Virus record (IMG/VR): IMGVR_UViG_3300027971_000223
Coordinates: 1 to 23,568 of that record
Reading direction: 5' to 3' (one strand)
Origin: a virus
DNA: 23,568 nucleotides
Made by a program: the position numbers and the translations under genes. Below the pieces are notes generated by a model. That model searched no databases. It was not told where the DNA came from and saw only the letters and a program-made list of their open reading frames with translations. Shown here piece by piece: positions 16,072-23,568 of the stretch. Numbering within the stretch: the stretch's first letter is position 1; every line of letters starts with the position of its first letter.

Positions 16072-16125
16072 ACTTTCCGAAAGAAAACTCTCGACAGTTT
16101 GCAACACGCTGCTACTTTGGCTTGC

Positions 16126-16299
16126 GTGAGCGTAAAACTTCTAACCGTCCAAGAGATTGCCTCGGCTCTCGGGACTCATCCCGAGACGGTGCGTCGGTGG
16201 ATCCGGTCAGGAAAACTTCCGGCTATGAAAGCTACGAAGCGCACCATCCGTGTCCGCTCCGATGTAATCGAGGAACTACTCAGACAAAACCCACAATGA
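16126..16299 (+). CDS. Excisionase/MerR-type helix-turn-helix protein
   Basis: A 57-residue DNA-binding protein that follows the excisionase-family HTH pattern: LLTVQEIASALGTHPETVRR then WIRSGKLPAMKATKRTIRVR, that is helix-turn-helix followed by the wing and the SDVIEELL closing helix. GTG 16126 is the preferred start because it gives the usual LTVQEIA beginning; an upstream in-frame TTG at 16099 would add nine residues. Its stop overlaps the RecT-like gene start (ATGA at 16296). It could regulate the early operon or assist recombination; no integrase is in the window to support a directionality role. Confidence 0.75.
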   Translation: MSVKLLTVQEIASALGTHPETVRRWIRSGKLPAMKATKRTIRVRSDVIEELLRQNPQ

Positions 16300-19514: not shown

Positions 19515-19970
19515 ATGAACAAAACAATCGTAGCCTGTGATCCAGGCGTAAACGGCGGATTCGCAATCCACACCAAGGACGGGATACTCCTGTTCGCAAT
19601 GCCCGAATCCTTACCGGATATGGCGCAACTCATCAGCGGATTCAAGGTGGCGGACTCCCACCTATGGGTCGAGAAGGTACCCAAGTTCGTAAGCAATCTC
19701 ACCCCCTCATCGAGCGTGGCTACACTGCACGAGAACTACGGAATCATCCAAGGACTAGCCTACTCTCAAGGCTACGCACTTCACCGTGTTGAACCCAAGG
19801 TCTGGCAGGAACCTCTTGGACTCGGTGGAAAGCGTTCATGCGCTACTGGTCCTGAATGGAAGCGAAAGCTCAAGAGCAAGGCCCAGGAGCTGTATCCGCA
19901 ACTAGACGTGACGCTTCGAAACTGCGACGCGCTGCTCATCCTTCACTACGCACTCGGAGGTGGTCGATGA
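19515..19970 (+). CDS. RuvC-like Holliday junction resolvase
   Basis: A 151-residue nuclease of the RuvC-like RNase H fold, which cuts branched DNA. The first strand gives IVACDPGVNGGFAI with Asp9, the second acidic site is Glu53 in LWVEKVPKF, the Thr/Ser-rich helix follows, and the C-terminal acidic site is Asp138 in NCDALLILHYAL. These match the catalytic layout of small phage resolvases. It starts at ATG 19515 after an (AAAC)4 leader. Its end carries GGAGG (19956-19960), which is the ribosome binding site of the first gene of the coiled-coil chain, coupling the two by ATGA. Confidence 0.82.
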   Translation: MNKTIVACDPGVNGGFAIHTKDGILLFAMPESLPDMAQLISGFKVADSHLWVEKVPKFVSNLTPSSSVATLHENYGIIQGLAYSQGYALHRVEPKVWQEPLGLGGKRSCATGPEWKRKLKSKAQELYPQLDVTLRNCDALLILHYALGGGR

Positions 19971-20239
19971 GCGATCATATTCCTGACGCCACGAAAATGA
20001 TCAGCGATACCCCGAGGACAGATGACGCTGAGTATCTTAGTTACGATTCGGAGCCGCCAGAATCGCTTGAGATGGTAGATGTGGCCTTTGCTCGACAACT
20101 CGAACGCGAACTCTATGCGGCCAACGAGCGCATCAAGCGGCTGGAGGAGGCGGGGGATGCGCTATGCGCTGCTGCCGCCTTTATGGGGTGGCACATGGAG
20201 ATTGAGAAGTGGAACAAATCCAAGGAGGCCAAGCCGTGA
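19967..20239 (+). CDS. Coiled-coil chain protein 1
   Basis: A 90-residue protein, first of eight related small genes. It has all three recurring parts: SDTPRTDDA near residue 13, a heptad segment RQLERELYAANERIKRLEEA with Leu/Ile at a and d positions (about three heptads), and the KSKEAKP tail. ATG 19967 is coupled to the resolvase stop by ATGA, with GGAGG six bases upstream. Its tail codons form the binding site for the next gene. Similar TPRTDA plus ERELNAANERI proteins are common in environmental phages but have no assigned role. Probably oligomerises through the coiled coil. Confidence 0.7.
   Translation: MSDHIPDATKMISDTPRTDDAEYLSYDSEPPESLEMVDVAFARQLERELYAANERIKRLEEAGDALCAAAAFMGWHMEIEKWNKSKEAKP
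20126..20151 (+). repeat. 26-bp perfect direct repeat, copy A
   Basis: Identical to 21533-21558. It encodes the ERIKRLEEA part of the heptad segment in chain protein 1. Confidence 0.85.
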
Positions 20240-20243
20240 GTGA
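20214..20243 (+). repeat. 30-bp perfect direct repeat, copy A
   Basis: This stretch is identical to 20635-20664. It covers the KSKEAKP codons, the SD and the first codons of the next gene. The flanks diverge at once. Confidence 0.85.
20222..20239 (+). promoter_or_regulatory. Chain junction 1: RBS plus GTGA start
   Basis: AAGGAGGCCAAGCCGTGA ends one gene (codons for KEAKP and stop), provides a perfect SD and starts the next gene at its GTG with a seven-base spacing. This is the first of five copies. Confidence 0.85.
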
Positions 20244-20457
20244 AACACCGAGGACGGATGCGGCGTGTAACATTTACGATCTACAAATAGTAGCTGAGAA
20301 CATCGAACGCGAACTCAACGCGGCCAATGAGCACATCAAGCTACTCAAGAGTTCTGGTAACGAGCTGATTGAATGGCTGAAGGATGGTGCTATTTCCGAC
20401 TCAAACTATCGGTTGCTGGCCAACGCATGGCAGCGAGCAAAGGAGAACAAGCAATGA
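20236..20457 (+). CDS. Coiled-coil chain protein 2
   Basis: A 73-residue relative starting at GTG 20236 in a GTGA overlap. It begins MSETPRTDAACNIYDLQ, then carries the heptad segment ENIERELNAANEHIKLLKSS and ends QRAKENKQ. The tail differs from KEAKP but keeps the same design: the codons for Lys-Glu supply AAGGAG (20440-20445) eight bases before the next ATG. The middle (ELIEWLKDGAISDSNYRLLA) is not shared with the other members, so each gene has a private segment. Function unknown. Confidence 0.7.
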   Translation: MSETPRTDAACNIYDLQIVAENIERELNAANEHIKLLKSSGNELIEWLKDGAISDSNYRLLANAWQRAKENKQ

Positions 20458-20660
20458 GTGAATCCGAAAATACAATTCAAGAGCAATGCTACGGCACTTG
20501 TTGGGGCGCACAGCAACGGATTGACGAGCTAACCCAGCAGCTCAACGCAGCAAACGAGCGAATCAAGCGGTTGGAGAGCGTAGAAAACAGCCATGCCGCT
20601 GTTCTAAATGCCATCGACAACTGGATTCGGCAGTACAAATCCAAGGAGGCCAAGCCGTGA
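20454..20660 (+). CDS. Coiled-coil chain protein 3
   Basis: A 68-residue member starting at ATG 20454 (ATGA overlap, AAGGAG upstream). It lacks the TPRTDA motif; instead it begins MSESENTIQEQCYGTCWGAQ with two cysteines. The heptad segment is DELTQQLNAANERIKRLESV and the tail is YKSKEAKP. Its last 26 bases plus the start of the next gene form part of a 30-bp perfect copy of the chain protein 1 end (20635-20664 against 20214-20243), a sign of recent exchange or selection. Function unknown. Confidence 0.7.
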   Translation: MSESENTIQEQCYGTCWGAQQRIDELTQQLNAANERIKRLESVENSHAAVLNAIDNWIRQYKSKEAKP

Positions 20661-20664
20661 GTGA
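20635..20664 (+). repeat. 30-bp perfect direct repeat, copy B
   Basis: Second copy of the 20214-20243 repeat, 421 bp downstream. It joins chain protein 3 to the membrane protein gene. Recombination between the copies would delete chain proteins 2 and 3 without breaking a frame. Confidence 0.85.
20643..20660 (+). promoter_or_regulatory. Chain junction 2: RBS plus GTGA start
   Basis: Identical to junction 1, and embedded in a 30-bp perfect repeat with it. It starts the membrane protein gene at GTG 20657. Confidence 0.85.
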
Positions 20665-20845
20665 CAAATATTTCCCGTGGCCAATTCTGATCCTCCCTTT
20701 CGGTTTGGGGTTTGTTGTTGGTATGTTGCTCGGAACGATATCAACCAACAGCTCATGGAAAACATCAGCGGTGAAGACGGGCCATGCTCAATGGGTTGCG
20801 AACGAACGCGGAGAAGCGGAGTTTAAATGGAAGGAGTGCAAATGA
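20657..20845 (+). CDS. Small membrane protein in the coiled-coil chain
   Basis: A 62-residue protein with one transmembrane segment at about residues 7-28 (PWPILILPFGLGFVVGMLLG), a short polar region and a charged tail. It has no heptad segment or TPRTDA motif, so it is not a family member, yet it starts at the same GTGA junction (GTG 20657, AAGGAGG seven bases upstream) and ends with KECK, whose codons give AAGGAG for the next gene. It looks like an unrelated gene inserted into the chain. It may anchor or partner the soluble coiled-coil proteins; this is speculation. Confidence 0.65.
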   Translation: MSDKYFPWPILILPFGLGFVVGMLLGTISTNSSWKTSAVKTGHAQWVANERGEAEFKWKECK

Positions 20846-21159
20846 GCGAACCAATCTACTTTTCAACCAACAGCCACCCAATATCCAATCCAACGACCCA
20901 AATCATGCGGGTCGATCTGGATGGTGGGTTCACGGTCAACGAATCCATACCCGCCACAGACGCTGCCAAAATGGTTCTTGGACTGATGAAGCAGGAATGG
21001 CTGGCCGATGCACAGGCCACCAAGATTCGCGAGCAAGAGGAGTATATCAATCGGTTAGTGAAAGCTGGAAACTACTTAGACGAATGTCTTTTATCTATAG
21101 CTGGAGAGAATCTTCCAGCAAAGCAATTGTGGCACAAAGCCAAGGAGGTCAAGCCGTGA
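20842..21159 (+). CDS. Coiled-coil chain protein 4 (divergent)
   Basis: A 105-residue protein. ATG 20842 is preferred over an in-frame ATG at 20827 because it makes an ATGA overlap with AAGGAG five bases upstream. The N-terminal half (VDLDGGFTVNESIPATDAAK) looks like a small beta domain unlike other members. A weaker heptad segment, KIREQEEYINRLVKAGNYLD, takes the place of the ERELNAANERI region, and the tail is AKEVKP, with one codon change (GTC for GCC). It shares the junction at 21142-21159 with the others, so it is a member by architecture. Confidence 0.65.
   Translation: MSEPIYFSTNSHPISNPTTQIMRVDLDGGFTVNESIPATDAAKMVLGLMKQEWLADAQATKIREQEEYINRLVKAGNYLDECLLSIAGENLPAKQLWHKAKEVKP
21142..21159 (+). 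promoter_or_regulatory. Chain junction 3: RBS plus GTGA start
   Basis: AAGGAGGTCAAGCCGTGA differs from the others by a single base (GTC for GCC), so the tail reads KEVKP. It starts chain protein 5. Confidence 0.85.
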
Positions 21160-21401
21160 GCGACACCCCCATATCCGACTCAACCGCTCACAACGTAGGC
21201 GACCTCGGTATGCTGTGCAGGAGGCTGGAACGTGAACTCAACGCAGCAAACTCAATTATCCGTCAGCAGCAATTGTTGAATGAAGAGAACCTTAGGTTAC
21301 AAGACCGCATCAAGCGGCTGGATGAAACATTAGAAGCTGTTACCGATAAAATTGATAATGCGTGGGGAATCTACATGAAATTTAAGGAGGCCAAGCCGTG
21401 A
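21156..21401 (+). CDS. Coiled-coil chain protein 5 (extended coil)
   Basis: An 81-residue member starting at GTG 21156. It begins MSDTPISDSTAHNVGDLG, a drifted form of the TPRTDA motif, then RRLERELNAANSIIRQQQ. An extra helical piece (LLNEENLRLQ) follows before a second heptad block, DRIKRLDETLEAVTDKIDNA, giving a longer coiled coil than its relatives. The tail is KFKEAKP. This looks like an insertion inside the heptad region. Coupled by GTGA on both sides. Confidence 0.7.
   Translation: MSDTPISDSTAHNVGDLGMLCRRLERELNAANSIIRQQQLLNEENLRLQDRIKRLDETLEAVTDKIDNAWGIYMKFKEAKP
21384..21401 (+). promoter_or_regulatory. Chain junction 4: RBS plus GTGA start
   Basis: Exact copy of junction 1, starting chain protein 6. 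The bases before it (ttt) differ from the other copies, so conservation stops at the SD. Confidence 0.85.
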
Positions 21402-21676
21402 GTGACGAACACTATTGCCCTCGGTGTAAGGCTGAATTTCTGTGTTTTAATGGAGTTAATACGCGCCATTTCAAGTGCGGATCAAGCACTCAAATTCCTT
21501 CCGTAGCATGCGGGTATGCATCGCAGCTTCAAGAGCGCATCAAGCGGCTGGAGGAGGCTTTAGCTTGGTACGAAACCAAAGTTTCGGACTGCAACCGACA
21601 AGGACCAGAAGGTGATGCTGCGCGTGATGCTCTCGCAAAAGACTACGGGCGCAAAGCCAAGGAGGCCAAGCCGTGA
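21398..21676 (+). CDS. Coiled-coil chain protein 6 with cysteine cluster
   Basis: A 92-residue member starting at GTG 21398. The N-terminal part is a probable zinc-binding module: CPRC at 7-10, then Cys16, Cys27 and Cys38. It replaces the TPRTDA motif. The heptad segment LQERIKRLEEALAWYETKVS follows, then a private stretch with DAARDALAKDYGR and the KAKEAKP tail. The codons for ERIKRLEEA are part of a 26-bp identical repeat with chain protein 1. The fusion of a different N-terminal module to the shared coil and tail is good evidence of modular shuffling. Confidence 0.7.
   Translation: MSDEHYCPRCKAEFLCFNGVNTRHFKCGSSTQIPSVACGYASQLQERIKRLEEALAWYETKVSDCNRQGPEGDAARDALAKDYGRKAKEAKP
21533..21558 (+). 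repeat. 26-bp perfect direct repeat, copy B
   Basis: Identical to 20126-20151, in the same frame relative to the encoded heptad segment, within chain protein 6. The two genes differ elsewhere, so the identity is local. Confidence 0.85.
21659..21676 (+). promoter_or_regulatory. Chain junction 5: RBS plus GTGA start
   Basis: Exact copy of junction 1, starting chain protein 7. The bases after GTGA (aca) differ from the GTGAGTGA seen at junctions 1, 2 and 4. Confidence 0.85.
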
Positions 21677-21858
21677 ACATTGAACAACGACTGCTTTACA
21701 TAGCGGAAGACCCTTTTGGCCTTTGTGATAAAAACTCACTGCGAAAAATTGCTCTGGAGGTCCGTAAAATAGAAGACCGCATCAAACAACTCGAAACCGA
21801 GAACGACGCAATGCGAGCGGATCTATTGCTCTATTGGGAGGACAAATGGCGTGAGTGA
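21673..21858 (+). CDS. Coiled-coil chain protein 7
   Basis: A 61-residue member starting at GTG 21673 from the fifth copy of the junction. It lacks TPRTDA and begins MNIEQRLLYIAEDPFGLCDK, then RKIALEVRKIEDRIKQLETE, a heptad segment with the RIKQLE core. The tail (YWEDKWRE) has lost KEAKP. The next GTG lies inside its end with an eight-base overlap and GGGAGG upstream. This marks the point where the chain's junction design weakens. Confidence 0.65.
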   Translation: MNIEQRLLYIAEDPFGLCDKNSLRKIALEVRKIEDRIKQLETENDAMRADLLLYWEDKWRE

Positions 21859-22033
21859 CACCCCACGCATGAAAGCGGCGCAGATGGCCGCATTGGAACA
21901 CATGACTGGAGATGTTTATCGTGTCGGTTGTGATATAGAACGTGAACTTAACGAAGCGAAGGAACTCATCAAGAGGCTGGAAAAGGCAGCATGGAAAAAC
22001 TATAAAAACGCCCACAAGAAGGAAGACAAATGA
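21851..22033 (+). CDS. Coiled-coil chain protein 8
   Basis: A 60-residue member starting at GTG 21851, with GGAGG (21837-21841) nine bases upstream. It has MSDTPRMKAAQMAALEHM, a drifted TPRTDA motif, and the heptad segment DIERELNEAKELIKRLEKAA. The C-terminus is basic and ends KKEDK, keeping the Lys-Glu tail whose codons supply AAGGAA for the following ATG. It is the last recognisable member. Function unknown. Confidence 0.68.
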   Translation: MSDTPRMKAAQMAALEHMTGDVYRVGCDIERELNEAKELIKRLEKAAWKNYKNAHKKEDK

Positions 22034-22767: not shown

Positions 22768-23019
22768 ATGAGCATACTCAAACAATTACGGTTGACCAAG
22801 GAGTCAATGGAAAAGATGTTGGGACCAGTCACCGCCTTCAAAGACCCTGACCCCAAGATTCCCAGGCGGTGGGAAGCCGTTCCAGAAGAAATTAAGGAAG
22901 CCATCCTCAAGGAACACGCAACCTTCACATGCAGGGAGTTGGCCAAGAAATACGGAATCTCATCATCATGTGCATGGAACATCATGAACAAGAAAAACAA
23001 ACAAACAAACAAACAATAG
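22768..23019 (+). CDS. Small helix-turn-helix protein
   Basis: An 83-residue protein with a homeodomain-like HTH at about residues 52-75: TFTCRELAKKYGISSSCAWN, preceded by a helix EEIKEAILKEHA. The pattern fits the resolvase/transposase-type HTH often found in small phage regulators. The N-terminus (LKQLRLTKESMEKMLGPVTA) is helical. The last eight residues, KNKQTNKQ, come from the (AAAC)5 tract and look like a neutral tail. It starts two bases after the previous stop. It may regulate the downstream transcription gene; this is a guess from proximity. Confidence 0.68.
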   Translation: MSILKQLRLTKESMEKMLGPVTAFKDPDPKIPRRWEAVPEEIKEAILKEHATFTCRELAKKYGISSSCAWNIMNKKNKQTNKQ

Positions 23020-23156
23020 AGGAACAACGATGGAAACAGTTATGTCACGAATTGGCCGCATGCTTGGGCTGCGGATGCACAACACAAACCGGACTGTGTG
23101 TCCAGTGCCACAAAGCAAACAAACGGTATCGAGCGGTCCAGATACCATTGCAATAG
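22974..23156 (+). CDS. Cys-rich small protein (start uncertain)
   Basis: An open frame ending at TAG 23154-23156 whose second half looks like a small zinc-binding protein: RWKQLCHELAACLGCGC then TGLCVQCHKANKRYRAV, with a CxC-x6-CxxC arrangement (Cys33, 35, 42, 45 from ATG 22974). The start is unclear. ATG 22974 gives 60 residues but overlaps the HTH gene and reads through the AAAC tract. An ATA at 23016 would make an ATAG overlap with that gene's stop. No SD fits either. It also overlaps an upstream extension of the next gene, so only one of the two frames may be translated there. Confidence 0.42.
   Translation: MEHHEQEKQTNKQTIEEQRWKQLCHELAACLGCGCTTQTGLCVQCHKANKRYRAVQIPLQ
22995..23014 (+). 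repeat. AAAC tract, 5 units, in coding sequence
   Basis: Five perfect AAAC units encode the KNKQTNKQ end of the HTH gene at 22768-23019 and also lie in the frame of the Cys-rich ORF. Because the unit is four bases, a change in copy number would change the reading frame. Confidence 0.8.
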
Positions 23157-23203: not shown

Positions 23204-23568
23204 ATGAAAATCAACGACTCAATCATTAAGATAAAAGAACTGAGGCTTAAGGGTTACACCTACAAAGCTATCGGTGACGAGATGAAGATCTCGAAGCAAC
23301 GGGTATCACAAATCATCTCTGCCAGCAAAAAGCGCGATGATGACAAAAACAAATGGACCAGCGGTCTCAGCACTCGCAACGTCCTCTTGATGGAGAAACT
23401 CGGAGTCGAAGACAAGGCGACCGCCATTATGTTGATCGAAACCCGTGAAATCGTTCCGTTCAAGTGGCCCAACTTCGGTCGCAGATCTTACCACGATCTG
23501 TGCGCCTGGCTTGATACCCAACCCATCGACCCCGGCCTAGGCAGGCACTGCCCGCATTGCGGCAAAAC
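23204..23568 (+). CDS. Sigma-4/alpha-CTD-like transcription regulator (partial at 3' end)
   Basis: The frame is open to the end of the window (121 codons and two bases from ATG 23204). It joins three parts. Residues about 10-38 are a sigma-region-4-type HTH (LRLKGYTYKAIGDEMKISKQ then RVSQII). Residues about 53-104 resemble the RNA polymerase alpha subunit C-terminal domain, with GLSTRNVLLMEKLGVED and WPNFGRRSYHDLCAWLD, the helix-hairpin-helix that in alpha binds DNA and activators. CPHCGK at 116-121 looks like the first half of a zinc ribbon. The frame also extends up to ATG 23030 with AGAGG seven bases ahead, adding 58 residues, so the start is open. Confidence 0.62.
   Translation, partial: MKINDSIIKIKELRLKGYTYKAIGDEMKISKQRVSQIISASKKRDDDKNKWTSGLSTRNVLLMEKLGVEDKATAIMLIETREIVPFKWPNFGRRSYHDLCAWLDTQPIDPGLGRHCPHCGK

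Follow-up and report, generated by a model that had tools for sequence, protein, structure and literature searches.

The last gene of a linear viral record in IMG/VR (IMGVR_UViG_3300027971_000223; 23,568 bases, analyzed in full and hereinafter the window) raises the question of whether a single small phage protein can join a helix-turn-helix (HTH) domain of the sigma region 4 type to a domain related to the C-terminal domain of the RNA polymerase alpha subunit (alphaCTD) and, if so, what such a protein would do. An earlier note on this DNA, made from the sequence alone, had proposed this fusion, together with a zinc element, and had placed it near another HTH gene. The genes that are relevant to this question are the following:

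23204..23568, plus strand: the regulator gene, with 121 of its 125 codons inside the window and the stop just past the window end
22768..23019, plus strand: the gene for an 83-aa HTH protein, weakly Mor-like by comparison with PHROG 836 and Pfam Mor
23031..23156, plus strand: the conserved segment of a short Cys-rich ORF, recognized by third-position variation and near-invariant cysteines in 29 sequences

The remainder of the regulator gene was recovered from a near-identical contig (L002), which adds four residues (TSKQ) and thus completes a protein of 125 aa with the C-terminus CPHCGKTSKQ. Upstream of 23204, the open frame continues to an ATG at 23030, and this stretch appears to be conserved. 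An N-terminal extension to that ATG was nevertheless dismissed because the coding signal there sits in another reading frame: within 23031-23156, this other frame varies at 37 of the 42 third positions, compared to 18 and 14 at the first and second positions, respectively (29 sequences), so the segment was assigned to a separate small gene. Furthermore, in several relatives, the stop of the upstream small ORF overlaps the start of the 125-aa gene as ATGA. Given the frame analysis and this coupling, the start at 23204, as proposed in the earlier note, is correct. The 125-aa gene itself shows excess variation at third codon positions; a scan for promoters and terminators around the gene yielded nothing beyond chance.

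Within the protein, the following features were delineated:

23204..23350, plus strand: residues 1-49, predicted trihelical HTH of the sigma region 4 type (Pfam Sigma70_r4, AlphaFold)
23354..23524, plus strand: residues 51-107, alphaCTD-like helix-hairpin-helix (HhH) domain (hhalign, Foldseek, residue counts)
23549..23560, plus strand: residues 116-119, CPHC knuckle, possible half zinc site (alignments)

The N-terminal domain passes the gathering cut-off of Pfam Sigma70_r4 (PF04545) marginally (24.6 bits compared to 24.1), and the same family was matched by all 16 relatives that were scanned, with E values of up to 5. In the AlphaFold model, the helices of this domain comprise residues 3-15, 20-27 and 31-49, and judging from the sequence and the model, trihelical HTH of the sigma-4 type is a fair description of residues 1-49. 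Given that the Sigma70_r4 match is marginal and spans only the 25 residues of the HTH core, with HTH_23 and other HTH families ranking after it, this domain may also be a generic trihelical HTH. The HTH originally proposed is thus supported, whereas its specific connection to sigma region 4 is less secure than the earlier note had it. Pfam detects no sigma-70 region 2, the region responsible for -10 recognition and core binding, in the 125-aa protein, so this protein is not a sigma factor. The N-terminal assembly domain of the alpha subunit is absent as well (Pfam), and the HTH is found in its place.

Searches with single sequences reveal little about the C-terminal part of the protein. Residues 51-107 gave no relevant match in the single-sequence scans of Pfam, NCBIfam and PHROGs; RNA_pol_A_CTD (PF03118, gathering cut-off 23.8 bits) matched neither the protein nor its relatives even at E values of 5 or 10; and a sequence-profile search of the PDB returned mostly matches to the HTH region and no alphaCTD. 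The failure of single-sequence search to find alphaCTD, along with the weak matches to many HTH families, is compatible with a conventional small repressor or autoregulator of the phage, in which a generic HTH would be followed by dimerization or stabilizing helices and the likeness to alphaCTD would be due to chance. Comparison of profiles argues against this possibility. A profile of 22 relatives was aligned using hhalign with an alphaCTD profile consisting of Bacteroidota loci and the E. coli, B. subtilis and T. thermophilus sequences (the latter three confirmed), resulting in a score of 25.4, compared to 13.6 for HHH_5, 8.5 for HHH_2 and 10.6 for HHH_3; the best of 300 column shuffles reached 17.2 against alphaCTD. 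With 43 relatives, and with six phage and plasmid alphaCTDs added, the score was 26.6, whereas 300 shuffles peaked at 18.6. Taking both runs together, alphaCTD scored 25.3-26.6, compared to 8.5-14.0 for the three HhH families, and none of the 600 shuffles reached the alphaCTD score. As a control, other HhH families were compared with the alphaCTD profile and scored 16-19.

The same comparisons bear on the alternative that the C-terminal domain is a generic HhH domain of the repair or recombination type. The profiles of HHH_2, HHH_3 and HHH_5 obtained probabilities of 0.2-2.2% and scores of just 9-14, which shuffles also attain when compared with alphaCTD; by this yardstick, hhalign detected no similarity to these repair-type families above background. 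Given that the hhalign probability for alphaCTD itself is 49-61%, the profile evidence is good rather than conclusive, and we consider it probable that residues 51-107 are related to alphaCTD, with strong divergence. The two parts of the earlier proposal that are central here, an alphaCTD-like domain and its presence as a module separate from the HTH in the same protein, are accordingly supported by the Sigma70_r4 match and by a profile score that favors alphaCTD over generic HhH families and shuffles.

Structural comparison adds to this picture in a limited way. Foldseek search with the full-length model was dominated by HTH-containing proteins and returned no alphaCTD, an outcome that also fits an ordinary repressor. 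Because of this dominance, residues 46-125 were modeled alone (AlphaFold, pLDDT 79). With the latter model, E. coli alphaCTD (1coo) ranked first among 350,542 PDB chains, although the match is weak (E 0.84, TM 0.47) and the superposition gives an rmsd of 12 Å; given the E value and the rmsd, the rank alone is informative. Ranks 2 and 3, also weak, were occupied by a repair polymerase and a helicase, as could be expected of a repair-type HhH domain. The comparison of a predicted structure with alphaCTD, which the earlier note had suggested, thus supports the relationship through the rank of 1coo but not through the quality of the fit.

The conserved residues also bear on the question of chance similarity. 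In alphaCTD, the DNA-contact (265) determinant consists of R265, N268, C269, G296, K298, S299 and E302. The profile alignment equates R58 with R265, G92 with G296, R94 with K298, S95 with S299, and D98 with E302 (E. coli alphaCTD numbering), so that five of the seven contact positions are kept and N268 and C269 are not. Among the aligned relatives, R58, G92 and S95 are invariant, position 94 is R or K (T in one clade), and position 98 is D or E; the 43-sequence set was gathered with a motif that itself imposes G92 and S95 and constrains R94 and D98 in part, leaving R58 free. The inclusion of alphaCTD DNA-contact positions among the conserved residues, together with a profile score well over those of shuffles and other HhH families, makes the simple repressor with a fortuitous resemblance to alphaCTD rather unlikely in our estimate. 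In place of the acidic 261 determinant (D259, E261), through which alphaCTD contacts sigma, the protein has T and G, and a 3-residue insertion separates the two alphaCTD contact clusters. Compared to E. coli alphaCTD (1coo, 1lb2), the window protein has the equivalents of the five contact residues in common but is fused to an HTH and lacks the N-terminal domain of alpha, N268, C269 and the acidic 261 determinant.

Most relatives possess CPHCGK or a CPHCxK-like motif at the C-terminus. The CPHCGK sequence on which the suggested zinc element was based is indeed present, but its interpretation as a full zinc site is not supported because there is a single CPHC knuckle and because this knuckle is missing in one sub-clade (L106, L107, L108, L111 and L112), where the proteins end with YNAIIHS or YHAIIHP. 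Close relatives of this sub-clade, L104 and L105, retain CPHC.

The scans of viral contigs yielded 34, 75 and 96 matching loci, and a scan with the C-terminal half alone yielded 154; up to 80 loci were kept from any scan, and the relatives in the loci kept reach down to ~34% identity. Among the best 80 of the 154 loci, 77 contain the strict HTH pattern, 2 more show an HTH by eye, and the remaining one is cut by the contig end; all complete copies among these best 80 encompass both modules in the same order. In the INPHARED collection of annotated phages, no direct relatives were detected. Among bacteria, where 84,980 species genomes were scanned twice, the sole match was a partial one of 26 residues in the HTH region, in a Chitinophagales MAG.

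No description of an HTH fused to an alphaCTD-like domain was found in the open-access papers that were searched, and the earlier note knew of no such fusion. Precedents do exist: both Sigma70_r4 and RNA_pol_A_CTD pass the Pfam cut-offs in a protein from a Chryseobacterium plasmid and in two proteins from gut phage contigs. The protein of the Chryseobacterium taklimakanense plasmid (WP_124785686.1, annotated as "DNA-directed RNA polymerase subunit alpha C-terminal domain-containing protein") likewise combines, in one polypeptide encoded by a mobile element, a Sigma70_r4-type HTH followed by alphaCTD; it differs from the window protein in being more than twice as long (294 aa) and in having a strong alphaCTD match (56 bits). 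The gut phage contig proteins L279 (MT835636.1, 332 aa) and L280 (MT837876.1, 303 aa), unlike the window protein, contain an additional N-terminal HTH_17 domain, long linkers and a much less diverged alphaCTD. Lone alphaCTDs are encoded by Bacillus phage Goe8 (QDP42789.1), Microbacterium phage Mazun (gp26) and Mycobacterium phage Marley1013 (gp51); Pfam detects no HTH in these proteins, which have other partner regions. The pairing of an HTH with an alphaCTD-like domain is real, with looser precedents elsewhere; set against these Sigma70_r4-alphaCTD fusions, the window protein is far smaller and more strongly diverged.

The other HTH gene mentioned at the outset lies upstream of the fusion gene and occupies the same position in the aligned relatives. 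Its 83-aa product matches PHROG 836, "late transcriptional activator" (E 2e-6), and scores 19.2 bits against Pfam Mor (PF08765), under the gathering cut-off of 24.9. The Cys-rich ORF (22929-23156), which has no Pfam match and the start codon of which is probably inside the preceding HTH gene, includes, immediately upstream of the fusion gene, the core WKxLCHELAxCLGCGCxxxxGLCxQCHKAxKRYRA; in this core, C5, C11, C14, C16, C23, C26 and H27 are kept in all aligned clades.

RecT, exonuclease, helicase and RuvC-like genes are located upstream of the fusion gene and, in relatives, small genes and then a primase/helicase gene follow downstream. Given this position, with recombination genes on one side and a primase/helicase gene on the other, a function in phage DNA replication or recombination can be proposed, with the C-terminal domain acting as a generic HhH. 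Considering the low scores of the HhH families and the presence of the HTH, which indicates site-specific DNA recognition, we find such a function highly doubtful.

Several additional features of this region were observed. The homologue of window 18338-19498 in contig L041 (282-2483) is a helicase gene with a ~350-aa insertion that is absent from the window copy; the insertion has intein-like ends (CFPSW... and ...ILVHNC), assigned by eye, and contains an out-of-frame ORF (901-1686) with CxxC motifs and, also by eye, an endonuclease-like C-terminus. Window positions 19856-22033 encompass a series of small, paralogous-looking ORFs that start with (M)SDTPRTD or similar, have coiled-coil-like sequences and often terminate with KEAKP. 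A 66-aa ORF between the structural and recombination genes (16099-16299) appears, by eye, to encode an excisionase-type HTH.

With respect to function, we lean, with moderate confidence, toward a phage transcription regulator of ~125 aa with two DNA-binding modules acting at promoters. The HTH would read a specific sequence in the promoter region. In RNA polymerase, alphaCTD grips the minor groove of A/T-rich DNA at UP elements, and the alphaCTD-like domain could grip adjacent DNA in a similar manner, most likely in an A/T-rich minor groove. At phage promoters, the bound protein would then recruit the RNA polymerase of the host to its place or dislodge it, thereby switching the expression of phage genes, perhaps in cooperation with the product of the weakly Mor-like HTH gene upstream. 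The sequences establish the gene, its bipartite composition, its conservation, its neighborhood and the retention of alphaCTD DNA-contact positions; DNA binding, promoter targeting and the effect on polymerase, including its sign and the redirection of host polymerase suggested in the earlier note, are inferred.

Given that the DNA-contact positions are kept and the 261 determinant is absent, DNA binding without a productive contact with sigma is conceivable. This combination would suit an inhibitor of host transcription, that is, a mimic of alphaCTD that would silence host promoters by sitting on UP elements or on the surfaces of activators; the HTH, however, suggests site-specific rather than global action, and we regard general shut-off as quite improbable.

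Returning to the promoter-specific regulator, the joint action of the fusion protein and its Mor-like neighbor is an attractive possibility because Mor of phage Mu acts at a promoter with the host alpha bound beside it (PMC4390567). The resemblance to Mor, weak as it is, is a property of the 83-aa neighbor and not of the fusion protein. A more specific version of the regulator, in our view unlikely, is a site-targeted surrogate of alphaCTD supplied by the phage: the HTH would set the module at phage promoters, where it would take over the UP-element role together with the Mor-like activator. To our knowledge, Mu brings no alphaCTD-like protein of its own. Should the surrogate scenario hold, the phage would carry its own detachable version of a part of the host polymerase.

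Few proteins of mobile elements pair sigma region 4 with alphaCTD, and the environmental phage family described here enlarges this set by a highly diverged branch that Pfam does not see. If the C-terminal domain works as it looks, alphaCTD would have been borrowed as a free-standing grip on promoter DNA within a regulator of 125 aa and, if so, this protein would provide a simple system for asking what alphaCTD does when untethered from the polymerase.
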